This document shows positions 3,635-51,665 of a DNA stretch of 64,000 bases, in pieces. The notes under the pieces were generated by a model that made no database searches, was not told the origin of the DNA, and was given only the letters and a program-made list of their open reading frames with translations. Position 1 is the stretch's first letter. The number at the start of each line of letters is the position of its first letter. Location of the stretch: positions 62,525,965 through 62,589,964 of the forward strand of contig OX419758.1 in NCBI GenBank assembly GCA_948567375.1, in the 5' to 3' direction. A program made the translations under genes and the position numbers. This DNA comes from Lunularia cruciata (Eukaryota; Streptophyta; Marchantiopsida; Lunulariales; Lunulariaceae).

Positions 3635-3676
3635 CTATACGCATTGGCAAAAAAAACAACATACCAATGCGTATAG
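3635..3676. repeat. 13-bp inverted repeat (hairpin), unit B copy 1
   Basis: The arms CTATACGCATTGG (3635-3647) and CCAATGCGTATAG (3664-3676) are perfect. The loop sequence differs from unit A while the arms are unchanged. Confidence 0.75.
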
Positions 3677-3792
3677 GGATCATGTGCTGTTCACAGGAAT
3701 TCGAGCAAAACAACTTCGAAGTCAATTCTGATTACGAAAACCTAGGAACTATTTTCAATCACGAAGATAGGCAAAAACCCTTTATCATTACG

Positions 3793-3831
3793 CTATACGC
3801 ATTGTCAAAAGCAGTATATCAATTCGTATAG
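3793..3831. repeat. Degraded inverted repeat, unit B copy 2
   Basis: The arms CTATACGCATTG (3793-3804) and CAATTCGTATAG (3820-3831) pair with one mismatch. This is the third occurrence of the hairpin, inside the internal duplication of unit B. Confidence 0.6.
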
Positions 3832-4185
3832 GGATCATGTCATGTTCAAACCGTGAAATCTAAAGTCTAGTATCTGGTACCGTTATCATTACTTTAGCGT
3901 CCATAAGGAAAACTAATCTACCCGAGCAAAGCGCGCGCACCAGCCGTAACCTATAGATAAAGAACCTATAAGAGCGATGTGTGTACGTTCTCTACTCCTC
4001 GTGCAATGTGTTGAAATTTGAGAACTTCCGGAGAAGTTGGGATCCGTGTCGAGCTCAACTCCGCTCGGTTGCAACGCGACACACAATCAATATGATCCAC
4101 AACCTTCAACTTTATTGGTACCAGATACGAAAGCTCGAACTGTTCAATGATTGCGCTTAAACACAGCACCTCCAGTACACGACAT

Positions 4186-4497
4186 ATACAGATCGTCGAG
4201 CGTCGTTTTCAACATCGGCGCTAATTGCGAGATACTACAGTAATTAAACCCGTATGCCTCTCGTAGTGAAGATCAACAATGCACGCGGAAGTGGGCATCT
4301 TCGCAGCAAGATGATATGGCGCTTACAAGGTCCATACAGATACATACAGATCGTCGAGTGTAGTTTTCAACATCGGCGCTAATTGCGAGGTACTACAGTA
4401 ATTGAACCCGGATGCCCCCCGTAGTGAAGATCAACAATGCACGGGGAAGTTGGCATCTTCACAGCAAGATGATATGGCGCTTACAAGCTCATGGACC
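4186..4497. repeat. Second internal tandem duplication in unit B (about 157 bp x 2)
   Basis: The stretch from ACAGATCGTCGAG at about 4188 through GATGATATGGCGCTTACAAG is repeated from about 4345. Unit A has it once (around 1000-1145). The unit length is close to that of the duplication at 3539-3855 although the sequences are unrelated. Confidence 0.75.
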
Positions 4498-5879
4498 TCC
4501 CCTTCTCAGGCCACCTTGGCTGCAGTGCACAATCACAACAGTCCGATCATGCTCATAAGCTTCGACAGCGGAAGGCGATGTTTCCTGCAAAGTCAAAGTG
4601 ACTACACCGGGACTGGTGCTGGGCGTCAACGATAAGCAAACATGCCTCACACTTCGAGCTCGTATTGTCATGCAAATCACCAGTAGCTCAATCAGGCATA
4701 TCGTGTCAGTCCATATAATGCAAAGTACACCGATCGAGACCATGTAATTCTTTGCAATTGCCTTTATACACAAACTAGGATCGTTGACCCCAGTCAAGAA
4801 ACTTATCAGTGGCGGTAAGCTTTTCAAACTTTTAGTTCTTTGGTTACAAAGTACTGTGCGAAGAACTGTGCGAAATCCCGCTCTTCACGAGCTAGCACTC
4901 CCCCGCTAGAGATGACGACTTCACGCGGATGACAACACAGGCATAATATACAGATAAGATAGTATGCACAGTATTCCCGAAACTTCTCGGATGATGGAAC
5001 CTATACAACATGAAGTGGAAGCAAACTTGAGGGGCGAGGTGAACTCCGGCCCTCCAAGTTGTGGTTGCTGGTATCTATCATTCCCGACGTTCATGTCCGG
5101 TGAATCACTCCCCTCCCGTGAAGAACGTTAGTTATGTCCCTAACTGTCTCCGTGAGCACGTTGATGAGCACATCCCCCCGGTCATGATTGTTGACCAGCG
5201 AATTGCCTCCAACTTCAGCCCACTCGTATGGACAGCAATCTTTCTGATTAACCATGCTGAAGAAAACTCGCGAATTATGCAAGAAGAACTTAGGCTACCG
5301 GCTTGCAGAACGAGCGTTCGGCATAGAGATTGCGCTCTTTCTACCTGACAACCCAGCATTTATAGGGAGTAAGCTACGCTAGATTACTAGCGCAGACCCT
5401 TAACAGCAATTTTGAAGACCAGTCACCATTCCAACACAGCAAAAGACCATTTACTGGATAAGCTGACGGTGGGACGCAGGTCAATCCGCAAAGACCGGTG
5501 ACACAATACGGTGATCCAAAGATTCACCTGTCTTCCCTTGATAGCGAATCCTAATTGTCGGTACACAAAACTCACTGTCCTTCACTCCATCCTCACGCCT
5601 TCCCTCTCCGCCACAGAGCATCCCCGGCCGACAGAGAGAAACTCTGGAACCCGATCCGGGAAACTGGTGCAGGTACCTCTTCTCAAGTTGGATGGCCCCA
5701 AATCCTTAAATTTCTGTTTAGGGTCTGAACTGCAAACCCCACAAAGCTACTTTGTGTTACAAGAGATATGAGAACCATGAATCAGACTTGTCGGGAGCTT
5801 TGTTTAACAATGGGTTGGAATTTGAACCTTACTTGAGTTCGATGAGTTCGATGAGTTCGAAGCTTATAGTAGGATGGTG

Positions 5880-27597: not shown

Positions 27598-28150
27598 AAA
27601 AAATATGGAAAGAAGGAAAGTAATTTACTACTGAACGGCGTGATATAAGTTCTCATCCGATAGATGTGGAGGAAAGGTCGTAGACTAGACTTGATGGGAG
27701 TTCTTTTTATTCCTGCAAGTCTATTAGATCCAATATTTGAGAAAGCTATAAAAGAGTAATTGAAATATATGAAATATAAGATAAGCATGAAGTAGTCATG
27801 ATCCTTCTCTTTTGAAAGGATCCTCTTGCTACCTCTTGTCTTGAAGGAGACCATGGAAAAAATAACCCCAACACAAAGCAAATGGAAAATAATGAAAATA
27901 ATTTACTATTGAATGTTGATATAAGTCCTGCTGTGATATAGCCAATAAATTGGCAGGAAAGGTCCTAAATCTGATGGGAGTTTCTATTGCTATTACAAAT
28001 CTATGAGATCTAATGCATAAGAAGCATTGTAAAGTGATGATGAATCTATCTAAAGATATAAAATAAACATAATAGATAAAATAGCAAATCCCTCTCTTTT
28101 GCAAGCATCCTCTTGTTGCCTTTCAAAGGAGACCACCCCAAATGATGGGA
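27598..28150. repeat. Tandem repeat, monomer about 281 bp, two copies
   Basis: The words GGAAA.GA.GGAAA, AATTTACTA.TGAA, GGCAGGAAAGGTC/GGAGGAAAGGTC, GATGGGAGTT and CTCTTTTG.AAG.ATCCTCTTG recur in the same order from about 27598 and from about 27878. The long minus-strand frame 27393-27881 runs through the repeat and is almost certainly an AT-rich artefact. Confidence 0.6.
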
Positions 28151-28532
28151 AAAAAGAAGAAAAGTCCTAAAGCCAAAAGGTACGACAAAGGAGGAATTAA
28201 AGGATAACAACAATATATAGTGGTATTCTTTACCTCTATTGGGGTAGTACCTATTGCTTTTACTTTGATAGTTGCTTGTGCTAATGACTCTCCTCATGGG
28301 GGATTAGTGAACAATGCATTAAACCGTTTTAAATCAAATAGCCTATATCATGTGTTCTCTAAAGTCATTATAAATTTTTTGCTCTTTGATGAAATGTCTA
28401 AGCAAATCCAATAAACACTCAATCTATGATTAAAGCAACATATATCATCCATCCAAGAGATAAAATCCAAATGATGAGTAAAATGCATAAAAATCTCTAA
28501 AGCTAAAGGTACAACAAAGACATTATGGTAAC
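28150..28532. repeat. Complex repeat monomer left of the chromovirus
   Basis: The stretch with TTCTTTACCTCTATTGG, GATAGTTGCTTGTGCTAATG, CTCCTCATGGGG and ending AAAGGTACAACAAAGACATTA matches 34165-34570 on the other side of the chromovirus. A further, more diverged copy follows at 34585-34960. The chromovirus therefore appears to have inserted into a tandem array with a monomer near 350-400 bp. Confidence 0.6.
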
Positions 28533-29125
28533 TTTAATATTCCGAGGACAAGAGAACTTTCAAGAGAAACACAAGAGAAGAAACACAAAGCTTCAAATTC
28601 AATCTTCCGATGCCCAAAGGAGCACCTTGTCTTTACTATATAGCAAAGAAGATTCCCTCAAAAGAAGCTCCACTATTGGATCAGATACAAGGATTGATGA
28701 CATTTCAACAAGCTCCACCCTTAGATTAGTTGCATGGATTGGTGATATGTCAGTTCTGTCCTATTTGGTTGGTCACACAAGTTTTACCAAAGGGAATGTT
28801 TAGGGAATCTTCCAATAGAAAGCTCAAATTGCATGGGTGAGATACCATTGGAAAGCTCTTGATGAGATAAATAGTGGGGGGGAAAAGCCAAGCATTTTCT
28901 TGCAAAGGGGGGAATCTTCACATTTTCAAGGCCTAATTCCTCTATTTAGGCTTCCAAAATTAGCTCTAAAGTTTTCAAGGTGTTTTCAACAATTTCCTGA
29001 TTAGTGTAAATACTCTTTTGGTGACACCTCTATCTGATATACTTAGACCATCATATATAACATCCTTCCAGATGTTACCAAGCCAATTTTACCTCTATGT
29101 AATATATCTAGCTAATGGTATTACA
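28533..29125 (-). repeat. Chromovirus 3' LTR
   Basis: It starts as TTTAATATTCC (eroded TGTAATATTCC) and ends CTAGCTAATGGTATTACA at 29125, matching the solo LTR at 51102-51660 and the 5' LTR at 33580-34140. On the minus strand it is preceded by a polypurine tract (AAAAGAGGGGAGATT, 29126-29140). A second copy of the LTR end plus tract follows to 29241. Confidence 0.75.
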
Positions 29126-29290
29126 AATCTCCCCTCTTTTAAGATGCAACATCCTTGATGCAAATTTGTTGATCAAAAGATTATAATTTTCACCTCTAGA
29201 TAATATGCCTAGCTAATGGTATTACAAATCTCTCCTCTTTTAAGATGCAACATCCTTGTTACAAAGCTGTTGCTCAAAAGATTGTTGGAT
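29089..29290 (-). repeat. Duplicated LTR end plus polypurine tract (about 101 bp x 2)
   Basis: The block ACCTCTA..TAATAT..CTAGCTAATGG..., the polypurine tract complement CTCCTCTTTTAAGATG, and CAACATCCTTG...GATCAAAAGATT occur twice head to tail (from about 29089 and 29192). The element therefore has two potential 3' LTR start sites 101 bases apart. Confidence 0.7.
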
Positions 29291-29440
29291 CATGTTGTTG
29301 GACCGGTGCATGGATCAAGTTGGCTGATGGCTCCCATGTTGCCACATATAGTTTGTACTCTTTCCAATGTACAAGATATTCAACACGTGGATAGCGGGTA
29401 CCATTGATGCATTTCTAGAGAATATATTCAACTTCATATT
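29283..29440 (-). pseudogene. Chromodomain at the end of the chromovirus polyprotein
   Basis: On the minus strand the frame from 29432 reads VEYIL, a stop, then GTRYPRVEYLVHWKEY and ATWEPSANLI. This is the chromodomain pattern, with the aromatic residues, the Y-L-V-x-W-K-x-Y strand and the T-W-E-P motif before the final helix. Only one TAG interrupts it. In chromoviruses this domain guides the integrase to methylated histone H3. Its presence places the element in the chromovirus branch. Confidence 0.8.
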
Positions 29441-29559
29441 CCATCATCTTGTCAATGAGTGTTGGACAAGGTCAAATTTCTTGTATGGAAGGAAAGTGTG
29501 GCAATAGAGATGCATACATGCATAATAAGGAAACGTGGAACACTAGATGGATCTTCATG

Positions 29560-30620
29560 TGTTGTGGTAGCTCAAGATGATAGGCCATTGTGCCAATTTA
29601 TTGTAGGATGGGAAAAGGTCCAATAAAACAAGGTCTGAGCTTAGGAGGACCAATTAACATGAGGTTGGTTGTGGACAACTAGACTTGATCCCAACATTGA
29701 ACTCCACGTGTTGGAAATGTGTATGTGCATATTGTTTCTGTTAATTTTGGGCAATCTACAACCTGTACTTGGTGTTCTCCACACCTTGTTGGATTCAAAA
29801 ACAAAAGTGTTGATAATATCAAACTTGGTAACCACCAGGTGGATCTTCATCAAGCTTGAAGGTGTAAAAGGATGCTTTCCATACATGAGGAAGAATGGTG
29901 TGACCTATGTGAATGCATTCACTAAATTATTATAGGTAAATTCCACCCATGAAAGTAAGGTGTCCTACCTCTCTTGCTCATCCAAGGTGAATCCTTAGAG
30001 CATGTCCTCAATAGTGCAATTAGCCTGCTCTATTTGTCCATTGATTTATGGATGGTAAACCATAGACATGGCCAATTTGATTTTGAAGATACCAAAAAGT
30101 ATTCTCCAAAACAAACTATTGAATTGAGAGCCTCTATTGGTGATGAGCACTCAGACAAGCCATGGTGAGGAAAGATTACATCTAAGTACAATTGAGCTAA
30201 TTGTGGAGCATTCATGTCCTTGGTGGTAGGACGCATATGAATCATTTTGTTAAGTCAGTCAACAATGGAGTCAAACCTTAAGGTGATCTTGTGCAATTCA
30301 TAAACCAAATCCATGATTACCTTTCCTAATATTCTGTAGGAGTAGGTAGGGGTTGAAGGAGTCTTATGGGAGCTTTATTAGAAGCTTTATTTTATTGATA
30401 AAGTAGGCTGCTTCAAACATATTCCATCATATTATTGCTCATCTTGGGCCAATAGTAATGGCATTTGACTACATCTAATATCTTGTCCACTCCAACATGA
30501 CCTACAATGGCAAAATCATGACATTCCACTAGGATGGTGGTTCTTATGTTTGTTGCCTCTGGGATCCATAACTTGCCATCACAAAAAGTGAGTCCTTTGG
30601 TATTGGTGATGCCTTTGGAT
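29560..30620 (-). pseudogene. Chromovirus integrase (zinc, core and C-terminal parts)
   Basis: The zinc-binding region is at about 30420-30600 (HDFAIVGHVGVDK ... YYWPKM). The core lies at about 29960-30290 (KMIHMRPTTKD, then a second frame with VYHPQINGQIEQAN, the region that follows the DDE aspartates). The C-terminal GPF-type region is at about 29570-29680 (PPKLRPCFIGPFP and AYHLELPQHMKIH). At least two frameshifts and several stops separate these pieces. Confidence 0.8.
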
Positions 30621-30799
30621 GAACAAGCTCTTACAATCTATGAATCAGTTTTGTAGCAGCAAGAATCCTTGGCCATAATTTTAGGTTCATCTTGACCTTT
30701 ACCATTAGATTTTTTTCCATAGGCATTTGGATGAATGAATCTACAAGTTGCTTCTTGCCTTCCACATATGTGATCATCATGTTGAATCATTGTCTACAC

Positions 30800-32020
30800 T
30801 TTATTGATCAAATCTGTTCAAGATAGATCTTTTTTTGTCTTGAGTAGAGATTTGTGGTTTTTCTCCACTAAAAATGCCTTCTTGATAGTGCTTCTAATGC
30901 TATGCTGCAAGGACTATGTCCAACTCTTCTTGTTTAGTGGTGTGATAGTTGTAGTTTTTCGATAACAACTTTCAAGAGAAATATGCAATTGGATTCCATT
31001 CGTCATGCAACTCTTGTTGTAGGATTGCTCATATTGTTATACCTAATGCATCTATAGCCACTTGATTGGGTGTTTTGGATCATACCATTTCAAGATTGGT
31101 GCATGTAGTAATGCATCTTTCAATTTTTGAAAGGCCAATTATTGTGTGGTTCTCCACATCCACTTCCTTCCCTTGCCAAGTAGTGTCATTAGAGGTTGTG
31201 TAACCTTGGAAGTCCTTGAGAAATTAACGATAAAATTCCATCAATCCTAAGAAAACCTTGAGTTAAGTTTGATCTTCTAGAGCACCCCAATTTTGAATGA
31301 CCTCTATTTTATTTGTACCAATTGGATACCTTTTGCACTTACTCTATGCCCTAAGTAGTCCACTTCAAACTTGCCAAACTTGCACTTTGAGATTTTTTCA
31401 TACAAATGATTTTGTCATAAAATCCAGAGGACTTCTCTCAAATGTTGCTTGTGCTCCAACATCCTACTATAGACTAAGATGTCATCAAGGAAAATGATAA
31501 TAGATTTATCCAAGTATGGATAAAATATATCATTCACCAAACTCATGAAAATGGCTAGTATGTTGGTGAGGCTGAATGGCATCACCATGTACTCAAAGTG
31601 ACCATTTGAACCTTATTTGAACAATTGTTTTCTATAGATCTTCCTTTGCAAGCCTTATTTGGTTGTAACCACTCCGCAAATATAATGTGGTGAAATCTTT
31701 TTCCCCATTGAGTTGATCAAATAGATCATCCATGTGGAATAGATCATCCATGTGGAGTAAGGGATATTTTTTCTTTATCATTTGTTGATTTAGGCCCCAA
31801 TAGTCAATGCACATGTGCATTGTACCATCCTTCTTCTTCACAAACAAGACAACAGACCTATATGGTGATATGTTGTATTGGATAAACCCAATCTATATTA
31901 TATCCTCAATTTGAGCCTTACACTCCTCCAAGTCATAAGGTGATAGTTGATATGGGGCCTTACAAGGAGGTGTTTTCCCAAGAAGTATCTCAATTTTATG
32001 ATCTACTCTCCTTTTGGTGG
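30800..32020 (-). pseudogene. Chromovirus reverse transcriptase and RNase H remnant
   Basis: From about 32020 the frame reads RRVDHKIEILLGKTPP and LFVKKKDGTMHMCIDY. It continues to RSGYNQIRL and an LDDILVYS catalytic motif encoded at about 31466-31492, with DYLGH beyond. The YPL.MDDLF segment contains an exact 18-bp tandem duplication (31721-31738, 31739-31756) that repeats HMDDLF. RNase H connection motifs (AFQKLKDALLHAPIL, then NHKSLL in another frame) are readable at about 31150-30830 with several stops. Confidence 0.8.
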
Positions 32021-32128
32021 TAATCCTAAGGGCAAGTCATCTAGGAAGACATCTTGAAACTCATTGACCACGTCTTTCAATTTCTCAACAATTTGTCCAT
32101 CAAGTTATGCACTCTAGACTTCTCTTAA

Positions 32129-32566
32129 TTAGGTCCATAACACATATGTTTTTTTAGAGATAGCTAATGTCCTTATAATATAGAGAGGAAGTTCTTGCCT
32201 ATCTAATCTTTCTTTAATTCCAATGATATTCCATTTGCAAGTTCTCACTATTTTCTTTCTCCAATCTACCATGGGGTTGTAGTGCTCCATCCACAACATG
32301 CCTAAGATTGCATCATAACAAGCTAACCATATCACTCGCCACTCAATCTCTTCTTGATACTCTCCTATAGAGAGTGCTACCTTTCTAAGTAATGACTCAA
32401 TCCTCTCTATTTCACCATTTGGTAACTCTACTTCTTCCTTCTCATCCTTCTCTAGATCCATTTCCAACCTTATTGCAACAAAGTGAGACAAGAAATTCTC
32501 TATTGCTCCAAGGTCTTTCAATACTCTTGTTTGATTTCCTTTTAAGATTCCATTCATGACAATCAA
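32129..32566 (-). pseudogene. Chromovirus protease region
   Basis: The 145-codon open frame contains DLGAIENFLSHFVA, corresponding to the D-S/T-G-A active-site motif with the hydroxyl residue replaced by Leu. It also has the ILGMLWMEHYNPMVDWRKK block typical of Ty3 elements just after the protease. The changed active-site residue means the protease would be inactive. Confidence 0.75.
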
Positions 32567-32905
32567 TTGTGATTTTTTCTACCTCAACCTTTGCACACTC
32601 ATCCTCTTCTTCCCCTTTTTTTTTCTCTTCTCCATTGAGGCAATAAGGCCACAAGGTACATTTATTGGTGATCATCATTTTTTGATGTGATTTTTGCATC
32701 CTCCTCTTTAATTTATCTCTCCATGTTGTTCAAAGATAGCCTACATAGAGACCAAGGGCCTCTAAGAAGACAAGCATGACAATTGATTATTATGTACCCA
32801 ACTCGGCATAATTTTAGCAACAATGTTGTTTTTCTTGAGTCCCTTCTCCTTGTGGGACTCCATCTCTCCTTTCTCTCGTCCTTGCTCACCTTGGATAGGT
32901 CATGC

Positions 32906-33205
32906 TCATCTATCTTGGAACTGAATGTTGCCCAATTTTATTGGAATTGGCCCACCAAAGTGTGGTGTTTTAGCCCAATAATGTTGAGTCAAGACTACTC
33001 CTTCACCTTTTCCAAGTGCCATTGCTATTCTCTTAGCACAAGCAATGGCTTCAAAAATAGTGCAAGGGTTTTGTACCATTACTTCTTGGTAAATTTTCTC
33101 TTTTAACCCTTGTTTGAAATTATCCAGAGCTTCTACTGTACTCATATCAATTATTGTGACCTGTAGGGTTTGGGACAATTCTCCTTTCTTACATTGCCTA
33201 ATCAT
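32906..33205 (-). pseudogene. Chromovirus gag (capsid C-terminal part)
   Basis: A 99-codon frame with LDNFKQGLKEKIYQEVMVQN and TIFEAIACAKRIA matches the end of the retrotransposon gag domain. It is followed downstream on the minus strand by a degraded zinc-knuckle-like CHACL near 32780. The N-terminal part between here and the primer site is decayed. Confidence 0.65.
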
Positions 33206-33567
33206 TCTTGAACGTACATACTTGGCTTTACAATGCCTCCATGATCATCTTGATTTCCTGAAACTCATTCAACATCCCCTATTCCTTGCATCAGATCTTG
33301 CAACTACATATCCATAATTCTTACATGCAGAAAATGCTCAATTGCTACTTCCTACTTCAATAAAGAGTTAATATGATCACTCAAGAGGGGGCATGGAATA
33401 TTGGGATTACCATTGGAACTTCAAAGGCTATCACTTGTTGATAATATTCCTCACCAAAAGAGAAATTGCAAGAGAGATTGAGAAATGATACTATAGTTTC
33501 TCTCCTCAATCTCAATAGCACATTTTCTTCCACAAAGGGTGATCCACTCTCTTGGATTTAAATCCAA

Positions 33568-33579
33568 GCTCTGATTCCA
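33568..33579 (-). other. Chromovirus primer-binding site
   Basis: On the minus strand it reads TGGAATCAGAGC directly after the 5' LTR. This is one change from the TGGTATCAGAGC complementary to initiator tRNA-Met. Confidence 0.75.
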
Positions 33580-34170
33580 TTTTAATATTCCAAGGATAGG
33601 AAAATTTTCAAGAGAAACACAAAGCTTCACACTAAATCCTCTGATGCCCCAAAGGAGCACTATGTCATTATTATATAACAAAGAGAATTCTCTAAAAGAA
33701 AGCTCCACCCTTAGATCAGATATAGGGATTGGTAACATGTCAACAAGCTCCACCCTTAAATTAGTGATATGGATTGGTGACATGTTGGTTCTTGTCCTAT
33801 CTAGTTGGTCAAACAAGTTTGATCAAAAGAAATCTTTAGAGAATATTCCTATAGGGAGCTCAAAATCACATGGATGAGGTACCATTAGAAATCTCTTAAT
33901 GAAGCAAATATTGGGAGAGAAGGCAAGCCTTTCTTTCCAAAGGGAGTGAGTTGTCAATTTTCAATTTCTAATTCTTTTGTTTAGGCCTCCAAAATTGGCT
34001 TTGAAGTTTTCAAGGTGTTTTTGGCTCCTATCATATTAGTAGAAATATTCTTTTGGTGACACTCTATTTGATATACCTACTCCATCATATATAACATCTT
34101 TCCAAATGTTACCAAGCTAATTTTCACCTCTAGATAATATGTTTAAACATATTATCTAGAGTAGCTAGTG
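33580..34170 (-). repeat. Chromovirus 5' LTR with internal palindrome
   Basis: It starts TTTTAATATTCCAAGGATAGG beside the primer-binding site and follows the other two LTR copies to CACCTCTAGATAATATG at 34141. There a perfect 34-bp palindrome (34128-34161) interrupts it, followed by TAGCTAGTGGG, a degraded form of the LTR terminus. The true end is not clear. Confidence 0.7.
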
Positions 34171-34960
34171 GGTTTCTTTACCTATAGTGGTGGTAGTAGC
34201 TATTGCTTTCACTTGGATAGTTGCTTTTGCTAATGATTCATCATAGAGGAGGAGCTCATACCAATGACTCTCCTCATGGGGATTAGTGAACAATGTATTA
34301 AACCATTTAAATCAAATAGCCTATATCACATGTTCTCCAAAGTTATTACATCTATTGCATATTACCTTATCAAATTGTCCATATCAAATAGATCTTAAAT
34401 ATGCTCTCAAAATTCAATATATCTATTTTTGTTCATTGAGAAAATGGTCCAAAAAAATCCAACCACTACTCAATCTATAGGTAAAACCACTCTAAACCAA
34501 CCATCCAAAAGAGATGCTCAAATGATCAGAAAAATGCACAAAAATCTCTATAGCCAAAGGTACAACAAAGACATTAAAGATACCCATGGTGTATAATGAT
34601 ACTCTTTGCTCTCATTGTAGTTGCTTGTGCTAGTGAATCCTTATATAGAATTTGCTTGTGTTAATGATTCTCCTCCTACTCCTAAGAGATTAGAAACCAT
34701 TGCATCAAACTATCTATATTGCATGTTCTTGAAAGTTGATATATCTATTTTCAATTGCTGATTAAATGGTTCAAGTAAATCCAATCTCCACTCAATCTAT
34801 AGTTAAAACTAATGTATATCACCCGCCCATGTTTTCATTCACAAAAGATATAATTGAAGTAAATCCAATCATCATTCAATCTATAATTAGAACCATCAAA
34901 GAGATAGTTTAAGTAAATAAAACCACCATTCAATCTATAATTAGAACCAAATAGATCATA
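34165..34960. repeat. Complex tandem repeat right of the chromovirus
   Basis: One monomer (34165-34570) matches 28216-28530. A second, more diverged monomer starts about 34585 (ACTCTTTGCTCTCATTG.TAGTTGCTTGTGCTA...). It ends in smaller reiterations of a roughly 60-bp word containing ATTCAATCTATAATTAGAACC (about 34790-34960). Confidence 0.6.
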
Positions 34961-34969
34961 AGATCTATA

Positions 34970-35526
34970 TCAATTTTTGTTGAATAGCATTCCACATCCT
35001 AAACTCTAGTGAACCTTGCATCTAGAGCATATCATAGAAAACATATGTTGTCAATTCTCCACCTAGAATATACTGTAGAAAATACATACTATATGCATCA
35101 TGCAATTATGCCCATGAGTAGTGATTTGTAAACCTAAAACACTTAACCTCAAAGTGTTTGAATACCATATGGAAATTTGCAAGCGCCTTGATAATCAACA
35201 TAAAAACACCAATGGTAAACCCAAGTGTACACAATGAGAGAATAGCTCATGATGGTAGGGAAAGGATGCTAGAGGGAAATGATGAGCATATTAAAATAAA
35301 GAGGTTGTAAACTTGGTAGTCTCTAATTTTATCAGAACCTAAAATCTAGAAAGATGTAAAAGCAGGTTGAGATATCCTTCTCCTGAATCATGTTAAAATA
35401 CTGCAATACATACCTACCCATGCAAGACAAAAACAAAGTTGAAATACTGAGCATTTATGAGTGACTGCATGGAGTCAAACTTGTCAATGAGCATAGACAA
35501 TAAGGTTTTTTGAAATCTTTTGGCAC
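34970..35526. other. AT-rich spacer, nothing recognised
   Basis: No coding motif, repeat or structure was recognised between the tandem repeat and the copia element. Confidence 0.5.
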
Positions 35527-35531
35527 ATATC

Positions 35532-35777
35532 TGTTATGGAAATGAATAATGAGAGTGGGCTCTAGGGACACAAGTCTAGCTCAAATATATATAGGTAGAG
35601 AAGAAATACACAAGTAGTTGAGTCACTCCTCACCATAACTCTAAAGTGATGACTGACTAGAACTTGTGAGTAAAGAATAAAGCATGACTAAGGATTAAAT
35701 CTCCTATTTTCACTAAGTGCCAAGAGTATTAGCTTGTGATACTTCATCAACACTTCATCAACAATACTTCATCAACA
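35532..35777 (-). repeat. Copia 3' LTR
   Basis: 246 bases bounded by TGTTATGG and ATCAACA, matching 40741-40982. It contains a small 25-base reiteration of ACTTCATCAACA at its right end. No CpG dinucleotide is left in it. On the minus strand the polypurine tract CTTGAGGGAGAG (35778-35789) directly precedes it. Confidence 0.9.
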
Positions 35778-35896
35778 CTCTCCCTCAAGTTAACATCAAT
35801 ATCTTTGATTCTTGGATGAAATCTGAAATATTCAAATTCATCTCTAGGTAAAGCTTTGGTGAAAATATCAGCAACTTGCTCATCTGTAGGAATATA

Positions 35897-36121
35897 CTAC
35901 GGATCTATTTCTCCAGCCAATACCTTTTCTCTAATGAAATGATAATGGACCTCTATATATTTGGTCCTTGCATGAAATACTAGATTGCTAGCAAGTTTAA
36001 TACTGCTGATGTTATTGGTGTATAAGATTACAGGATCATGAAATATATATCCCATATCTTCTAATAAGGTGTGAAGCCAAATAGACTCACATGTAGCATT
36101 AATGGCACCCTTATATTTCAC
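35897..36121 (-). pseudogene. Copia RNase H fragment
   Basis: The frame contains [26 protein letters not shown] and [20 protein letters not shown]. These are the conserved end of the copia RNase H domain and give the family assignment without doubt. Confidence 0.85.
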
Positions 36122-36363
36122 TTCTGTTGATGATAAAGCAACATTAGGTTGCTTCTTTGATGACCAACTGATTACAAAACTTCCAAGACTGAAAATATAA
36201 CCTGATGTTGATCTTCAATCTTGAGCACTTCATGCCCAGTCTGCATTAGTAAAACCTTGTACAATGGGTAACTCACCAGTTGAATAGTGAAGATCAAATT
36301 GGATGGTAAACTTCACATAACATAAAATCCTTAGAACTATATCAAGATATGGCTTCCTTGGTG

Positions 36364-37420
36364 CTACACCAATTGACTCACTAGACCAACAGCATAGCTT
36401 AGATCTGGTCTATTAAGAGTCAAATGAATCTGACTTCCAATGATATGTCTGTACATATTTGGATCAGCCAACAACTCACCATCTTTAGCATTTAACTTAA
36501 TAGAAGTTGGGAGAGGAGTAGAAATATGTTTACAAGCAATCATAACAAACTTCTCAACATGTTGAGAGAATATTGGCATTGTAGTAACCAAAGGTTATTG
36601 CCATCTTGAATAAACTCAATATCCAACAAGTATTTGAGATTTTCCAAGTCTTTCATGTCAAACTCTCCCTTCAACTGATCTTGTACATATCGAATGAGAT
36701 CTTGACCAATACTAGTGATGATCAGGTCATCAGCATAGATGATCAACAAAACCACATTGCCACCAACTTGTAGTTTGTATAGTGAAGAATCTGAATTGCA
36801 AACTTGAAATCCAATGGATAGAAGATAGGAATTTATCTTGGCATTCCAAGCTTGTGGAGCTTGCTTAAGTCCATAAAGGGACTTTTCAATAAGCACTGTT
36901 TTTTTGGATATCTTGGATCTTCATATCTAGGTGGTTGGATCATGTAGACCTCCTCCTCCAAATCTCCATTGAGTAAAGCATTGATGAATTTCATCTGATA
37001 AAGCTAGCACTTATTGAAAGTGGCCAATGCTAAGAGAGCATAACTTGATGGCATCTTGGCAAGAGGGATAAAAGTCTCATCGAAATCAATTCTATATTGT
37101 TGTGAGCAACCATTTGCCACAAGCCTTGCCTTGTACCTATTCATTATACCATCAGAATTCTTCTTGACTGTAAAAATCTACATGCAGCAAATTGCCTTGT
37201 TACTAGGCAATAAATCAACCAACTCCCATGTTTTTTGGTGATGTAGGGCTACAACTTCAAGCTCCATGGCTTGCACCAATCTGCATAATGCATTGCTTCC
37301 TCAAGAGAATTTGGTTATCTTTCTTGTATAGCCTTTACCTTATGTGCATGATGTTGTTCTTAAAAACCTTCAACTTGAAAACTTCTCATTGGATATTTAA
37401 CTTTGTACTTGTCTTTTGTT
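36364..37420 (-). pseudogene. Copia reverse transcriptase, broken
   Basis: Frame 36896-36540 has KSLYGLKQAPQAWNAKI and the YADDLIIT catalytic motif. Frame 36591-36364 has the RHIIGSQIHLTLNRPDLSYA block that follows it. The start of the domain lies further right in other frames with several stops. The separate frames show at least two frameshifts. Confidence 0.85.
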
Positions 37421-37616
37421 GTTCAAGCTCAGATGTGCTACTTGTAGCCTCATCTAAATTACTTGAAATTCTTGTACTACGTGGTTGACAGACCATTTGT
37501 TCCAACAAAGGAGTAGAATCATTACTAGATAAAGTAGGGGGTAAATTTCTTATAGGTTGAGAACCTTGGATTAAAGACTTCTCAATGGCCTATTTTGACT
37601 TTGGATTTACAAATGG

Positions 37617-38640
37617 CTAAGATTGTGAGTGCTCACTAGAAACACCCGTAGCACTTGAAGTACTAGCCTCTGGTACAAAAATATTATGTGGACCAACCAA
37701 AGGGGTAGAGGGTGCTTCAAGTGGTAAATCATATGTGCAACTTGTAGGAGCATGATACCAGGATTTTAACTCCTCAAATACGACATCTATATTGAGATTA
37801 GAAATATTAAAATCAGGATTATAACACCTATATCTGGTAGAATTTGAGGCATATCCAAGAAAGACATTTTTGGCCTTAGGATCTAGTTTTTGCCTCTGCT
37901 TGTCAGGAACATGAAAAGCAAATACAACCAAAAACCCTCAGATTTGATAAATCAGGTTTCTTACTTGTAAGAGCTTGAAATGGTGTCATTTTCTATCTCC
38001 TAATGCAGTAGGAGATAGATTCATCATGTAAATTGCACAATAAATTGCTTCTGCCCAATAAAACTTGGGCATTGCCTTCTCATTGACCATGGCTCTTGAA
38101 ACTTCAGAAATATATTGGTTCTTCCACTCAGCATCTCCATTTTGTTGAGGTATGTAGCTGCAAGTAACTTCAAGATTGATACCTTGCTCATGTAGAAAAG
38201 CATGAAATTGGTTTGAAATAAACTCTCTTCCTAGAGCAGAATGTAGACTGAGGATAATATAACCATATTGCTTCTCCACAAGCTGCTTGAATATTTGGAA
38301 AATTGGAAGTACATCTGATTTAGCTTTCAGAAAGTATACCCATGTATATCTTGAAACGTAGTCAATAAGACAATATTTAGAGTAGATTAAACTCTTTTCT
38401 GAAGCAGCCCATATGTTGGTTGATGTGTATCAATTCTAATGCCCCGAGGCCCTTGTACCATGATGCTTAAAAGGTTTTCTAGCTTGCTTACCAAATTGAC
38501 AAGCCTCACAAACTCATAGAAGCAAAGGATCAAAAAATATCGGAAGCCCCATAACCAGATTTGAGGTAGGTAACACCTTTAATCTTTGTTGGCTTATGTG
38601 ACACACTCTTTTATGTCACATCTCAAGATCTAAAAAATCA
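37617..38640 (-). pseudogene. Copia integrase, broken
   Basis: Frame 38279-37986 carries LHSALGREFISNQFHAFL, then TCSYIPQQNG, matching the integrase core around its second and third acidic residues. The usual second aspartate of HSD is replaced (HSA). Frame 37931-37617 carries the linker between core and RT (DPKAKNVFLGYASNSTRYRC). The zinc-binding part lies near 38460-38640 and is eroded. Confidence 0.8.
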
Positions 38641-38760
38641 GTCGACCCATGAATAAACATAGCATTCAGATTTATAATAGTGTGGATCTTGATGTCTAAT
38701 TTAAACTTACTCCCAATTTTAATTCCAAGTTTGTATCCTATGAGCGTAGCAGATTTCTCA

Positions 38761-39638
38761 TACTTGTACACAAACACACTATCTTGGTTAAATAAGACAT
38801 GAAAGCCCTTCTCAATAATCTGGCCAATAGAAACCAAGTTCTTGGTGATTGTAGGTACGTGAAGGACTTTTCCTAAACTACTAAATTTGCAGATGGAGAT
38901 GAGAAAGAGAGAGTTCTTGTATGAGTATGCTCAATATCATCACCTTTATTCACATACAATAATTCAGGTAATAGGACTTAGAACTGAAAATACTAGCATA
39001 ATAGTCATATGGTTGGAGCACCCTAAGTCGATGAACCGCACTTCTTCACCATACTTGTACACAAACGCACCATCTTGGTTAAGACTTGAAAGCCCTTCTC
39101 AATAATCTGGCCAATAGAAACCAAGTTCTTGGTGATTGTAGGTACATGAAGGACTTTTCCTAAACTACTAAATTGGCACATGGAGATGAGAAAGAGATAA
39201 TTCCTGTATGAGTAGTAATATGCTCAATATCATCACTCATATTAAAAAAAAAATTTCAGATAATGGGACTTAGAACTGAAAATATTAGTCTGATGGGTCA
39301 TGGGTGGAGCACCCTAAGTCGATGAACCACACTTCTTCACCATACTTGTCTACAAACACACCATCTTGGTTAAATAAGACTTGAAAGTCCTTCTCAATAA
39401 TCTGGCCAATAGAATCCAAGTTCTTAGTGATTGTATGTAAGTGAAGGACTTTTCCTACACTACTAAATTGGCAGATGGAGTTGAGAAAAAGATAGTTCCT
39501 GTATGAGTAGTAATATGCTCAATATCATCACCCATATTCACAAACAATAATTTAGGTTATGGGACTTAGAACTGGAAATACTAACCTGATGGGTCATATG
39601 GTTGGAGCACCCTTAGTCGATGAACCACACTTATTCAC
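38761..39638 (-). repeat. Copia protease domain in three tandem copies of about 291 bp
   Basis: A block starting TACTTGTA/TACTTGTC recurs at 38761, 39052 and 39343, each 291 bases (97 codons) apart. Each copy encodes on the minus strand a degraded protease start (WFIDLGCS, the D-S-G active site region with Leu for Ser) and a conserved end (TKNLVSIGQIIEKGF). Copies differ by substitutions and small indels. One copia protease is about this long, so the whole domain is triplicated. Confidence 0.8.
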
Positions 39639-39725
39639 TCTTGGTCATCAATGCAACAGTGTTAATAGATGATCCTCTGAGTAGAAATGCTTCTCCATAT
39701 AGTTCTCTTGAGGGAATTTACCAGA

Positions 39726-40560
39726 TCAAATATCATCTTGCTTCTTGAAGCAAGTCTTCTCATAATGAGACTTTGATTTACAATATTTGTAGAATCTCTT
39801 CATTGTGGAATTGCCTTGTGTTGCATACTGCCTTTGTGAGGATTGACCTCTACCAACAGCACCCCACGAAGTGAACTTCCACATCTGCTTCACTTGCCTG
39901 ACCTCTCCCAGCAAACAGAACCTGATCTTGAGTAACAAGACCATCACCACCACCTTGCAGCCACATCTCTTCAGAGACTAACATTGGTACTAGCTCATCA
40001 AATAGAGGATAAGTATCTCTAACAGCTTTTGCTGTCTCAAAAGGTTTATACTCCTGTAGTGGACCTTGAATAGTCTAAAGAATCAAATCATCATCCTCAA
40101 CCTTAACTCCAATGCTATTCAGTTGCTCAACCAGACAACAAACATGATAAATATAATCAGTTATGCTTAAGTTCTCCTTAACCTCCATTAACTACTGCTT
40201 CAGTTGAAGCTTTCTTGCCTTAGTCGACGTCTGGAAAACATTTGCTAATGTACCCCAAACCTCCTTGGGAGTATCAACACCTTGTATGTAACCAAACAGT
40301 GATGGTGAAACACAAAAAGAAAGATAGTGCACAGCTTGATTGGCCCGTATATTCCAATCACACCTTTAGGATCTGCCTTTAGGATCTGAAAGAGCACCTA
40401 CATGACAAGTTTCAACACCTGTGACAATATCAAACAATTCTTAGCCTTTCAAGAAGACAGACATTCTATATTTCCATACAGAATGATTGTTCTTAGTCAA
40501 GGCTTCCCTGTCATGCCACCGTAAGTATCGAGTTTAGAACTCATAGTATAAACTCTAAAA
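39726..40560 (-). pseudogene. Copia gag, broken
   Basis: Frames read on the minus strand include IQGVDTPKEVWGTLANVFQT and TKARKLQLKQ, typical of the copia gag UBN2-type domain, then KPFETAKAVRDTYPLFDEL. Frame 39953-39726 ends with a zinc knuckle (FYKYCKSKSHYEKTC) in which the first Cys is replaced by Tyr. Confidence 0.75.
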
Positions 40561-40628
40561 ATCAGATCACTTGATAATCGAGCCCTTCTGCCAAATTGAA
40601 CTCAGAGGCTCTCGCCCGCATCTCTTTT

Positions 40629-40840
40629 GCTCTAATACCATGTTCCGGAAATGAATAATGAGAGTGAAGACACCAAAGTTCACCAAAGAATGGTCTCCGG
40701 GGACACAAGTCCGGCCCGTCTCTCTTCTACTCTGATACCATGTACGGAAATGAATAATGAGACCAGAGACCAAAGTTCACCAAAGATCTCCCGGGACACT
40801 AGTCCAGCTCGAATATGTATACATAGAGAAGAAATACACA
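40629..40840 (-). repeat. Duplicated LTR end and primer-binding site of the copia element
   Basis: Two primer-binding-site words complementary to initiator tRNA-Met occur about 100 bases apart on the minus strand (TGGTATTAGAGC at 40629-40640 and TGGTATCAGAGT at 40729-40740). Each is followed rightward by the same LTR-terminal sequence (GGAAATGAATAATGAGA...CCAAAGTTCACCAAAGA). The duplicated block is about 100 bp and includes the LTR end plus leader. Confidence 0.8.
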
Positions 40841-40982
40841 AGTAGTCGAGTCACTCCTCACCATAACTCTGAAGTGATGACTAACGAGCGACCTGGTGAG
40901 TAAAGAATAAAGTGTGACCAAGGATTAACTCTCCTGCGTTCACTAAATGCCAGGAGTATTAGCTTGTGATACTTCATCAACA
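40741..40982 (-). repeat. Copia 5' LTR
   Basis: 242 bases from TGTACGG to ATCAACA, next to the right-hand target duplication. It has seven CpG sites, whereas the partner LTR has none. At most of these positions the partner shows TG, CA or a related change. Confidence 0.9.
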
Positions 40983-40987
40983 ATATC

Positions 40988-41480
40988 GATGGGCCTAAGA
41001 CAGCATATGAGCTCATGGCTTCCCACTCCTATGTTCAGCTACGTGGATGGCTTCTCAACTGACATTTGAATTTATAGAAAAAGTGAACTTGTAATTCCGC
41101 CATGAAAAGCACACCTTAGTTTACTCCTACTAAATATTTTAAGCGCGCTACCAACTCACTAGTCTACAACAGTATCCGCGAAATTTGTAGTAAAAGAGGC
41201 TTGGACAGAGAAGAAGCCTTCTACCTTAATATGCGTGTTAAATGTGGGTTAAACTAGACAGAAAAACCTCTACAAAACATCAAAGCCAATTCTCTGCTAA
41301 TCGTATATACATATCGCTTATACAGTGGCCTGATTGGGATATAGTAGAGATACTACTGATCTACTTGTCGGCCTGTCAACCTCCCCTAAGTTTGTGTCTG
41401 TGTTGTTGCAACTCGACATGACTACTCTCGGAACAGGCTTCCTCTCAATAACGTAAGTTACGTTGTGCAACACCGTCTTT
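40988..41480. other. Spacer between copia element and ATXR2-type gene; 3' UTR expected here
   Basis: No repeat or coding motif was recognised. Transcripts of the minus-strand gene must end here or read into the adjacent LTR. I could not pick a poly(A) signal with confidence. Confidence 0.4.
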
Positions 41481-44400
41481 CTACCTTTGAAGCATTCCAG
41501 CTAAAGCGCGGCTGCTGAAAATCTTCATTGAACTTTCCTCTATACACCTTGAACAGGAGCACATGAACCCATAATCGGCAAGCAAGGCCTGCCTCTCCTC
41601 AAGATCATGATTTTCATCGATGTAGCTTATGGTGATCTGCAATAGTGGAATGGTGTAAAAGGTGTCAGCAGAAAAGTCGTTTGCACTAGGTACTTCCCTT
41701 CATCAATCTGATTTCAAACAAGTCCATTTTATTACGATGGATGACGATGAATTTAAATACCTCCTCTCCACTATAAATTTCTCCAGTGGCCAACAAAATT
41801 GCAGCTCCGTCTCTATCCTGCACCACACTTTGTCGTCAAGAAGATAGCATACACAGTAGCGTCATGCAAAAGGAAGACTGCATCTCCAGAAAAATTAGCA
41901 ATAAATTTAGGTGACAGAATACTGCTGTCATATTTTAGAAGACACACCTCGTCTCTTTTGAATGCTTTCGCATTTGGGCGACATGAGTGATTGATGCAGC
42001 TTTGTAGAGCGAAAAATCCGGTTCCTGCATAATGCAAAGTTAATTAAATGAAAAGCCGCCGAGGTGGATTCTATTGACAACTTAATTAAAACCCTTGTTC
42101 GTATCACTTCGTATCATTCAAATAGAAAGATAACCTCAACTAGACAACAGTAGCTGGGACTCGAGAGCCATACGCTACTCTACAGATTCTATGGAACTTG
42201 TCACCTTACTCCCCTTTCAAACTAGGAATGTTGGAAACGTAAGCAGCTAAAATTAAATGGAAATATTTTGAAACCTTATTACTCACGATCCGTAACAATG
42301 TCCAAATAAGCGCAGCATTCACTAGAAAGACAGATGGAATATACCACTACAGTAGGTTGCATAATCGGAGCCAAGAGCATCCAGAAATGGTCTCGTGATT
42401 GCGCCAGCTTGTACATTTTGTTCAGGTGGAAGGTCATCAATGTAGATGAAATAATCTTCAACGGGAGACGGAACGACGATTTCTCTACAGAACGCACATA
42501 ATCATGAGTGTTGGTCAGCAATGATGAATTCTACGTTTGGTGCGAACCTCATTGTCCAGTTCAAGATCTAACACTTAACGCACGGTATAGCTGGGAAACA
42601 AGTTTCATGACATAAGGGTTCTGTAATACGGAAAATTATAAAAACAAATCTGTTCCGAAGTGAATATCACTGATCATATTCTGAAAATGTTTCCATTCTC
42701 TGCAACAAACAACAAGCTCGACTGACATAAGTCTACTGTGGTCCACTTGACCAAACCTTTCGAGGTCTATCATTCTTCTTACCTTTCCACGGGATTGACA
42801 CGAGACGGATGATATGTTACCAACTATGTCTCAACAACATGACGGAGCGGGCATTACTTCAGCACGGCCTACTTGCCATTTGAAACCATTCAGAATAAAA
42901 GTTTCTTACAGATTGTTCAGCTCGAACATCCCGACGATATGACCGTACACCTCAAGATCAAACACTGGATCAAAAAGAATCAAGGAATCCAACATGGTTC
43001 CACCCAGCAACAAATATTCGTATGGATGAAAGGAAGGTTACCGAACAGCTACAGAAACTTTAGAGTTGTACTGAAAGACTTTGAATATTTACAGCAACAA
43101 TTCTTCTTCTGAAGGAATGACAGAACCTAAGCTTGAGAGCACAAGCAAACCCTCACCTGATACTAGTTATTTAAAAGTCTGTAGTACTTGAACGATATAT
43201 CGGCGTTGACAAAGAGTAAGGAAACCGAGATTCATTCAACATTACGACTCGATGGAAAATAGTAGAGGATACAGGCATCATATTCCTCATCATAAACAGC
43301 TTCCTTCAAGTACGTCAATGACTGCATGACAACCACTTCCAGGTGAGATACGTTGCGCAGCTGGACAGTGATCATTTTTAATACGTTAGTGTAGAGCTAC
43401 AGGTTTTTAGCCCATTACTTACCATGTACGCATCCTAGAGACTCGCTATCTAATTAAGGAGGTTTGAGGAAACCTGATTCGATACGCTCTGCTTTCGGAT
43501 GGTTACCTGGGTAGCAAGCTCCTTGAACTGATCTCTGAAGGCACTTTCTTGCGAAGGCTCAACATCATCAGGCGAAGCCACAGCTTCCCACCACCTGTCA
43601 GACACTAAATTCGATTAAACACGTCGAGTCCTCCTTGGAACACATGAATACACAGCCAAATTACAGGTGCTAGAAAGCGTACTCATGCCCTAAAACACAA
43701 AACGTGGTCTATGATGTATCTGCTCATATTCTGACATGTAAGAGATGGGAGATACAATTTTTTATAGCCCATTGCAAACGGCTCCCATGCTTCCAGTAAG
43801 ACATCAGGAGTTTGTTGCTCTTTGCCCTTTGAAGTAGAATACTTCGCAAGTTCTTTCTTCAAGTGTCTAGCCTTTAATATTGTTCCTGCAATGACCTTCA
43901 TATAGGAAGTATCTCTGTCAAAAACAAAAGAAAATCCACAATTGTAACAAACTTCTTGATTTCCTACACCATTTCAATATTTCTGTTGACGTCGCTAGAC
44001 CTCTGAACTTCAGTTAGGAAGTTCATCTTTTTTTTAAGGACAAATGATCAGCAACTATATAGTTGAGAAACATAAACTCTCTTCATTCAGTTCAGAAGCA
44101 TACCTGAGCAGCAACCAGAAAGATGTCATTAGATTCTGCCCAACCAAAATTGATGTTACAACACCCGACAAAGGTACTTTCATATACACGTCATATTCTC
44201 GTGATTTGAAATACTACGCTACTTCACAAAATAGGCATATTTCCCTATCTTCATCAAGGAAAGCAGTTAACATTACTCAGAAATTTACCGGTAGAGCATG
44301 AAACTCTTTCCTGAATGTATGGAACCATCGGTACTTAGATCTCCGGGTCACCCAACAAGTAAACGAAAAGTCCAACATATAAACCATCTAGAAAGTAGCT

Positions 44401-46529
44401 TTACAAGGTGTAAAACGATCAATAAAAGGCGTTACCATGGATCACAGAGTATATAGGAAATGAGAGCAGAAGTCGTTCGTAGAACGGTCGATCCACACCC
44501 AGTGAAGACCATAGATCACACAGTATATGTCCAAAGAAGAAAATAAAAACAACTTTGGAAGCTTCGAAAATTTACCGCAGGCATGCTCCTTAAATTTTGC
44601 AAGGGCCTTTTTGTCAGGACAAAGTGAGTGTGGACCCGTGCAGAGGAGCGAGTGATAGGTTCTCCATGCTTCATCTGCACAATCATCGCTGTGACCCCAC
44701 CCTTGTCAGACCTCTTTGTTACATGGACCATAGCGAAACGCAGCAATTTAGTACCACAAGCAGACATCATACCTTGAACACAGTTAGAGACAAACACATT
44801 TTCACCCAACATTCGGAGCTTCATTTCCCGGGAAGACGAGAATAGATCACAACTTGCACTTGTGTAGCTCATTACATCGTTCGCAGTATTACGAGCTAGC
44901 ACTCTCCCGAAGCCTCCTTGATGGAGACTTCGGGAGAGATCATACGGACCTGCAGTAGACGTCTTCTGAGCAACCCCCTGGACAGTTGACAATTGGTGGC
45001 AGCTGAAATTGCTCTGAGTAAGGAAGACGTAAGTCCCCAGTCAAGAGTGAATCAATTAATTCTGCTGATACTGGTTTCCTTTTCGCTGAAGGGCCCCCGC
45101 ATCTACAACCGTCTTCTTCAACATCACTCCCTTCTTTCTCTTCAGAGAGATCCATATCGGATCCCTCTTCTTCTCCAGCTTGATCATTGTCGTATGAGTG
45201 CTTGGGCCCGTCCACTTTGGATAGCAGTCTCCTCCCAATTTGTAATTCTATGCTACCAATGTACCGGAAACACAGACTGCACACTAAGGCATCTGGCTGC
45301 ATGACAGAAGGAATGTATAAATGTATAATCAATGTGCGTGCTAATTGTAAACGACCAACACTGAGATTTGAATTTGCATTCAAGCCAGCAATATTTCATC
45401 GATTTCTTACTTATTCTTGACAAGGAGTCATAGTTGCAATAATTTCAGAAAATGAGATAGGCCGAGGGTCCATGTTCTTGAGGTGCTCACCTTGTTGTGC
45501 TCGTGCTGTGCTCCAACTAACATACGCTCACGCAGCACCAACTCATCTTCCTCGAAGTCCTTGCCAGCAAATAAACCTGTAGAAACCACCATCGACGTCA
45601 AGGTAGGCTCAACCACTTAACACTGAGATTTCGACAATACATAGGATCTACAAACAGGTAATAAGAAAAGAAAGAGTTAACAGAAGAAAATTTATCTCCA
45701 AAAGCACAACCAATTGCCAAGCTGTACAAGCCAAAGCTTAAATATAAATCTCAAGTTGCTTACAATGCTGGCAAAGGAGTGTCAACAATTATTGATAATC
45801 ATGAGTAAAATAATCCGGCAGAACGGAGAAAGTAGCCTGTGGAGTTATGTACCTTTCCCAAACGCGCCTCCAATCTGCTCTACTTTCAATCCTGGTCCCT
45901 TGCCTGTACTTGCAAGGTTGTCATAGTATTTCTGCATAAAGAAACGTACGAGCGCAGAAAACGGAGTGAATTTAGCAACCTCACCTCTTAAATCTTCTCG
46001 CCACATCAATATCACGACATCGCACATAAAAAATGTAAAGAATTTTACCTCACAGCGGACTCCAGCGTAAAGCAAGCAGGAAAGCTCACTCAGCAGGAAG
46101 GTCCTATTAAATAAATCATCCCCTGAACACATGCGCTAACCTTCTCAATTCCAGGACCAGTTCAGCTGCAATTGTAGCAGATGAACTGATAACGATCACG
46201 ACTTTTGACCGGATGCTTTCGGATTCGATAAGAAAATTCAACATAATCAAGCAATCTCTAATAGATCGCATATCGATATAAAATCGGCACCTGCCTTCGC
46301 TCCAATTCAGCAAGCTCTCACTCCGGTGGAGTGACGGCGGTGGTTCCACTCTCCTAGTCTAGAAACTCCCTCAAACGTCCAACGCAACACGATTTTTTCA
46401 CTCAGAAAGACAGATTCATCATCTTCATACGGAATTGATCGAGTAGAAAACGAGACGATACTCAGAAGTAATGCATTGCTGTACCCGCATCGCCGCATCC
46501 GACGGCGTCTCCAGCAGCAGATTCGCCAT
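41481..46529 (-). CDS. ATXR2: ATXR2-type SET-domain histone lysine methyltransferase
   Basis: Joining 14 exons gives 1464 bases, 487 residues; the Arabidopsis ATXR2 protein is of similar length (about 470). All introns are GT-AG and all phases agree. The protein follows ATXR2 from end to end: an N-terminal KYYDNL region, GKGLFAGKDFEEDE at the start of the split SET domain, then a MYND-like cysteine region (CSLCFRYIGSIELQIGR, PGGCSEDVYC, CADEAW...LLCTG). In the middle are LLEAWEPFAMGYKK and a VYGHIVGMFELNN helix. The catalytic SET core has FALQSCINHSCRPNAKAF and ITISYIDE, followed by a post-SET FMCSCSRC zinc cluster. SET proteins transfer methyl groups from S-adenosylmethionine to histone lysines; Arabidopsis ATXR2 is linked to H3K36 methylation. 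An acidic insert (about residues 95-120) is the most diverged part. No stop, frameshift or missing catalytic residue was seen, so it is probably functional. Confidence 0.95.
41481..46529 (-). other. ATXR2: Exon map of the ATXR2-type gene
   Basis: Coding exons in transcript order: 46529-46485, 45931-45853, 45576-45491, 45296-44950, 44688-44576, 44135-44104, 43895-43756, 43594-43507, 43321-43273, 42964-42910, 42484-42345, 42024-41948, 41817-41761, 41636-41481. The sixth exon is only 32 bases. The ATG at 46529 is supported by an in-frame TGA at 46559-46557, a good start context (A at -3, G at +4) and the family N-terminus. The stop is TAG at 41483-41481. Alternative acceptors exist at exon 9 (one 39 bases upstream, in frame), but the chosen site aligns best with the family. 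Untranslated exons were not sought. Confidence 0.88.
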
Positions 46530-51096: not shown

Positions 51097-51665
51097 CCAA
51101 GTGTAATATTTTTAGGATAGGAGAACTCTCAAGAGAAATACAAGAAAAGGAATACAAAGCTTCACACTCAATATTCCAATGCCCTAAAGGAGCACCTTGT
51201 CTTTATTATATAGCAAATAGGAAACTCCACCCTTGGATTAGATGCATGATTAGGGATATGTCACCAAGCTCCACCCTTAAATTAGTTGCATGGATGATGA
51301 CATGTTGGTTCTTTTCCTATTTGGTTGGTCCAACAAGTTTGACAAGAGGGAATCTTTAGGGAATCTTCCTGTTGGAAGCTCAGAATCGCATGGATGATGT
51401 ACCATTGGAAAGTTCTCAATGAGACAAACATATTTCTGAAGAGGAAATTTATTTTTATTTTTAGGCCTAATTCATCTATTTAGGCATTTGAAATTGGCTC
51501 TAAAGTCTCCAAGGTGTTTTTGGCTCATGCCTTATTAGTAGAAGTCCTCTTTTGGTGACATCTCTATCTGATCTACTTAGTAAATCATATATAACATCCT
51601 TCCAAATGTTACCAAGCCAAATTTCACCTCTAAATAATATGTCTAGCTAATGGTATTACACCAAG
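51097..51665. mobile_element. Solo LTR of the chromovirus family with target duplication
   Basis: The LTR runs from TGTAATATT (51102) to GGTATTACA (51660), 559 bases. It matches both LTRs of the element at 28533-34170. It is flanked by a perfect 5-bp duplication CCAAG (51097-51101 and 51661-51665). There is no internal sequence, so it results from recombination between the two LTRs of a former full element. The orientation relative to the full element is the same (gag-pol would have been on the minus strand). Confidence 0.92.

Follow-up and report, generated by a model that had tools for sequence, protein, structure and literature searches.

The window, a 64,000-nucleotide stretch of the Lunularia cruciata genome, contains a Copia retrotransposon on the minus strand, the same strand as an ATXR2-type SET gene, and the element lies 498 bp past the stop codon of that gene. 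The gene (41481..45937; stop codon at 41481-41483) has a provisional start and 12 open coding exons that encode a protein of 482 amino acids. The protein was assigned to the ATXR2 type by a SET domain (E 1.3e-11) and a near full-length match to plant ATXR2, and a MYND domain falls just under the cut-off. Within the best 120 of 406 protein matches, the top ones are from Marchantia (74%) and from Riccia, where two species reach 70% and 69%, followed at lower rank by another liverwort and by mosses. This ranking points to a liverwort of the Marchantiopsida. The Marchantia match carries the label MpATXR10, and the match to Physcomitrium ATXR2 is 54%. The intact coding sequence suggests that the gene is active.

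The retrotransposon is bounded by two long terminal repeats (LTRs) of the form TG...CA. The left LTR (35532..35777, minus strand, 246 bp) is the 3' LTR of the element, and the right LTR (40741..40982, minus strand, 242 bp) is its 5' LTR and faces the gene. A 5-bp target-site duplication, ATATC, flanks the pair at 35527..35531 and 40983..40987, and these ends are those of a Ty1/Copia element. The interior (35778..40640, minus strand) has broken frames, and its Pfam domains follow the Ty1/Copia order in the coding direction, with the integrase before the reverse transcriptase: Pol_BBD (38616-38930) and rve (37986-38429), both below the Pfam cut-off, and then SH3 (37617-37937) and RVT_2 (36540-36920), both above it. 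A stretch adjoining the left LTR (35778..35789, minus strand) is taken to be polypurine-tract-like, and the stretches at 40630-40640 and 40730-40740 presumably resemble primer sites. The inner end of the left LTR carries a short tandem expansion. On the right, an additional copy of about 100 bp (40641..40740, minus strand) repeats the inner LTR end and the primer-site-like stretch. The two copies in this duplication (40630-40740) are only about 80% alike, as if the duplication predated the insertion. A 295-bp unit occurs three times in 38759-39638, and in the other copies that cover this region (e.g. L011, L014, and L017) all three units align to one place. Shared rare states gave no clear grouping of LTRs (two in the examined pair; all-pair mean 0.74, maximum 4), and the pairing of the two LTRs therefore rests on position and on the duplications.

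The region around the insertion site has a short duplicate of low copy number, in which the site is empty, on C12 at about 41.303 Mb (L009, 5352-5874). At this paralogous empty site, the sequence corresponding to window positions 35324-35531 directly abuts that corresponding to 40983-41157, with AAATC at the join. The identity to the window flanks is 80% on the left and 84-88% on the right, and a 35-bp piece (window 41371-41405) is in a different order at L009. The target-site duplication and the paralogous empty site show that the element entered as a single insertion. The left flank (35324..35531) has no CpG compared to seven at the empty site, where the window now reads TA, CT, CC, TG, CA, CA, and CT. 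The right flank (40983..41157) has five CpGs compared to six; in a gappy alignment, the window has CG at three of these six sites, TG at one, and gaps at two. The CpG loss in the left flank may be older than the insertion.

The initial annotation described a left LTR without CpG and a right LTR with seven, and both the coordinates and the counts hold. It also read TG or CA in the left LTR at several of the right-LTR CpGs, which is the case at three of the seven; the remaining four are AG, CT, TT, or a gap. At six of the seven right-LTR CpGs, half or more of the other family LTRs compared also read CG, and a sign test on the LTR-pair CpGs (7:0) gives 0.016. Taken by itself, the LTR pair is therefore evidence of moderate strength, and the main weight comes from the composition step and from the family. 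The CpG observed/expected ratio (o/e) is 0.09 in 28001-35531 and 0.05-0.20 in the element body to 40200, and it rises to 0.46 in 40201-40641. The right LTR stands at 0.65, and 40983-41480 at 0.77. Within the gene, the introns (0.75) exceed the exons (0.61), indicating that the CpG-normal right side is not a coding-sequence effect. A single change-point between CpG and TpG/CpA sites, fitted over 30-45 kb, falls at 40517-40520 with a log-likelihood gain of 96, compared to 8.7 for the best of 500 permutations, and the 3.3-log-likelihood support interval is 40164..40520. The step is thus located within the element, as first proposed, and the original estimate of about 40.2 kb becomes its outer limit, with the best estimate at about 40.52 kb. 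The interior was not CpG-poor originally, because 95 family CpG sites are inferred in 35778-40200, of which 2 remain CG in the examined copy and 75 now read TG/CA. The inferred family sites retained as CG number 4 of 11 in 40201-40641, 6 of 16 in the right LTR, and 0 of 16 in the left LTR.

The window holds two more sharp composition steps, at about 28 kb and 47.1 kb (CpG o/e 0.73 to 0.13; GC 0.47 to 0.28). Related LTR-like repeats at 28218-29125, 33581-34576, and 51104-51660 are CpG-poor throughout and flank an aspartic-protease-like open reading frame (32129-32578), perhaps as parts of another LTR element. The repeats at 28.5 and 33.6 kb are CpG-poor on both sides and show no contrast. Large direct repeats, 80-90% alike, occupy 1-5867 in CpG-normal DNA, and the open reading frames scanned there had no Pfam match.

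Changes in the LTR pair were polarized against 15 other family LTRs, found mostly with the CpG-rich right LTR as the query. These 15 outgroups lean CpG-rich, which may affect polarity at CpG sites but should leave the remaining changes as balanced as they are. The left LTR has nine C>T/G>A changes (four CG, four CHG, and one CHH), and the right LTR has three, all CHH. Transversions (five left, six right) and T>C/A>G changes (three left, four right) are roughly balanced. The initial annotation had predicted an excess of CG loss on the left only, and sorting by context (CG, CHG, and CHH) located the C>T/G>A changes in the methylated contexts CG and CHG to the left LTR alone, eight compared to none, with 9 and 13 other changes on the left and right, respectively (Fisher 0.004). 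Leaving out two right-LTR transversions that adjoin a gap at the tip gives a Fisher value of 0.010. The four CG-context changes taken alone, in this one LTR pair, are not significant (Fisher 0.11). Loss at CHG sites alongside CG sites is the expectation for plant-type transposon methylation.

The genome (566 Mb, 74 contigs) was searched for other members of the family. Both LTRs were located for six elements: the examined one, four of ten matches studied in 10-kb stretches, and one of six further matches studied in smaller stretches. The last of these is C10:49.92 (L045/L053), and a mate LTR was not found within the stretches examined for the other five of the six. Judged by eye among the four other two-LTR elements, the target-site duplications TATCC and CCATT match, and GAAAC/GAAAG are one base apart; no clear duplication was seen by eye at C7:44.91. 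Across the 12 ends of the six two-LTR elements, LTR o/e follows flank o/e (Spearman 0.80, p 0.002). CpG is retained on the CpG-normal side in all four asymmetric elements, on the right in three and on the left in one (C10:49.92). In the two elements flanked by CpG-normal DNA on both sides, the body is decayed (o/e 0.12 and 0.19) and each LTR retains CpG.

A second set was listed with an interior query to avoid selecting LTRs by their own CpG content. Of 40 elements scored, 36 were examined, the four omitted having matches that stop short of the LTR side; L066, L076, and L079 were dropped for want of an LTR abutting the interior, and 33 left LTRs remained. With cut-offs of flank o/e ≥ 0.45 and LTR o/e ≥ 0.4, which were fixed after most of the data had been seen, the LTR is CpG-normal beside 21 of 23 CpG-normal flanks and CpG-poor beside 10 of 10 CpG-poor flanks (Fisher 7e-7; 2e-6 minus the examined element). 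The rank correlation between LTR and flank, which needs no cut-off, is 0.60 for the 33 LTRs (p 0.0002), in a set where similarity to the query may favor less decayed copies and the copies are perhaps not fully independent. Among the 26 elements new to this set, 20 of the 23 that bear an LTR were used (matched part ≥ 120 bp) and gave a Mann-Whitney value of 0.006. The two exceptions, L058 and L070, have LTR o/e values of 0.14 and 0.13 beside CpG-normal flanks, and there the edge would be the end of the element. The retention of CpG on the gene side, seen in the initial annotation, is thus not peculiar to this gene: among the elements examined, each LTR matches the CpG state of the outer DNA.

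The position of the step was fitted at 11 ends that adjoin CpG-normal DNA. These ends belong to the first ten loci and the examined element, and their LTRs come mostly from the CpG-rich LTR search. At 10 of the 11 ends the best step falls within the element (123-915 bp), and nine of the 11 have it 0.1 to 0.5 kb in; at the remaining end, C1:5.52, it lies 127 bp outside. The median over all 11 is 262 bp. A step fixed exactly at the element edge is poorer than the best step at every one of the 11 ends, by 2.8 to 10.2 log units. Moving the step to the inner LTR end improves the summed fit (-31.5 vs -64.7 for the element edge), which is still poorer than the free fit.

The CG and CHG losses confined to the left LTR, which are the mutational footprint of methylation, and the agreement between LTR and flank throughout the family support the original explanation that the gene-proximal end stayed unmethylated and the remainder was methylated. 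We infer methylation as the cause. Very probably, the body and the methylated flanks were under long-term CG and CHG methylation and an LTR beside unmethylated host DNA was spared. The Copia element would have inserted beyond the 3' end of the ATXR2 gene, and its interior would have been held methylated at CG and CHG sites until most CpGs were lost by deamination. The left LTR, adjoining CpG-poor DNA, would have decayed together with it, and the right LTR, on the CpG-normal gene side, would have stayed mostly unmethylated and retained its CpGs. The edge of the methylated domain would then fall within the element, in most cases 0.1-0.5 kb short of the end, with the LTR adopting the state of the host DNA outside. 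Element age is ruled out as the cause of the contrast because the two LTRs of one insertion are equally old, and the role as 5' or 3' LTR is ruled out because both occur on the retaining side.

Gene conversion, in which a younger CpG-rich copy overwrote the right LTR together with roughly 0.5 kb of the adjoining interior, would fit the finding that the right and left LTRs are no nearer to each other than to other copies. It is nevertheless very unlikely: the donor check raised for the right LTR by the initial annotation yielded no near-identical copy (the best other match is 87% identical among 40 of 219 candidates scored), the changes other than deamination are similar on both LTRs where a young overwriting copy should show fewer, and conversion would be needed on the CpG-normal side repeatedly, element after element. 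The idea that the LTRs were unequal at insertion, so that a recombinant or chimeric element brought the contrast with it, draws on the different LTR lengths and the partial duplication at the right end. Six of the seven right-LTR CpGs agree with at least half of the other LTRs, the left states are derived by the polarized comparison, and across the family the contrast tracks the flank and not the element; a chimeric origin is accordingly highly improbable. Selection could preserve the right LTR, CpGs included, if it served the gene as a 3' UTR or terminator, a role compatible with its strand and its place 498 bp after the stop codon. There is very little chance of this, as its other changes are as frequent as those in the left LTR, so it does not look constrained, and the pattern recurs at many loci. 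An assembly artefact joining two sequences near 40.2-40.5 kb can be practically dismissed, because the flanks adjoin at the paralogous empty site on another chromosome, the target-site duplication and empty site fit one insertion, the interior matches other copies continuously across the step (e.g. L014), and the same step is present in other family members.

The preferred reading, long-term methylation that spares the LTR beside unmethylated DNA, leaves two ways to set the edge. Open chromatin pushing in from the host side is the one we lean toward and consider reasonably probable, rather than an LTR that is simply not targeted, which is possible but doubtful. A broader proposal, likewise possible but doubtful, places the LTRs of this Copia family by default beyond the silenced domain, with silencing seated in the interior and halting near the LTR/interior junction unless the DNA outside is methylated, and with an edge stable for the age of the insertions. 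If this were true, many unmethylated LTR promoters would lie beside host DNA. The initially identical LTRs act as an internal control, and each old insertion would record in the germline, used here for the heritable cell lineage of the plant, the side on which methylation stopped. Across a family, long-term positions of methylation edges would thus be readable from an assembly alone. An edge that lies mostly inside the element and depends on the neighboring DNA is relevant to how a bryophyte accommodates genes and transposons side by side.

Among the titles listed from an openly licensed library, none dealt with the CpG asymmetry of plant LTR pairs. For a liverwort, the new points are the mutational record, the test across the family, and an edge that falls within the element; LTR asymmetry itself is already known from the mouse. 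In the Marchantia data considered here, LTR elements carry methylation (up to 30%), and genes have little of it (PMC5784723). In Welwitschia, methylated LTR elements turn GC-poor by C-to-T change (PMC8275611). The liverwort repeats would likewise have lost methylated cytosines by deamination, but the Welwitschia comparison is between element classes and ours is between the two ends of single insertions. In maize, the state of the DNA flanking a transposon differs between its sides, and spreading is often one-sided and independent of orientation (Noshay et al. 2019, PMC6752859; Eichten et al. 2012, PMC3521669); the flanking state of the liverwort element also differs between its two sides. In maize LTR families whose flanks carry little methylation, a CHH peak marks the element edges (PMC6752859), whereas the liverwort LTRs that adjoin CpG-normal DNA appear unmethylated on an evolutionary time scale. 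If the LTRs were outside the silenced domain by default, the arrangement would be the reverse of that in maize, whose element edges receive special methylation next to unmethylated DNA, and weak RNA-directed protection of edges in liverworts could be behind it. Six RNA-directed methylation proteins are reported only from angiosperms in a survey whose sampled bryophyte was a moss (PMC4607528).

The closest parallel is in the mouse, where the gene-side LTR of endogenous retroviruses (ERVs) near start sites was less methylated than the far LTR in three of three full-length cases by bisulfite analysis, an asymmetry attributed there to the spread of euchromatin out of the gene (Rebollo et al. 2012, PMC3491417). 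Only 5 of 34 ERV copies near genes were unmethylated in that work, most copies near genes staying methylated (PMC3491417). In both systems the two LTRs of one insertion differ, and on the liverwort side the difference consists of CpG content and CG/CHG decay, a mutational record alone. In the mouse cases described, methylation was measured, the copies lie near transcription start sites, and the LTR concerned is always the 3' LTR. The liverwort element lies beyond the 3' end of its gene and is not close to a start site; either LTR can be the retaining one, and most copies beside CpG-normal DNA show the effect.
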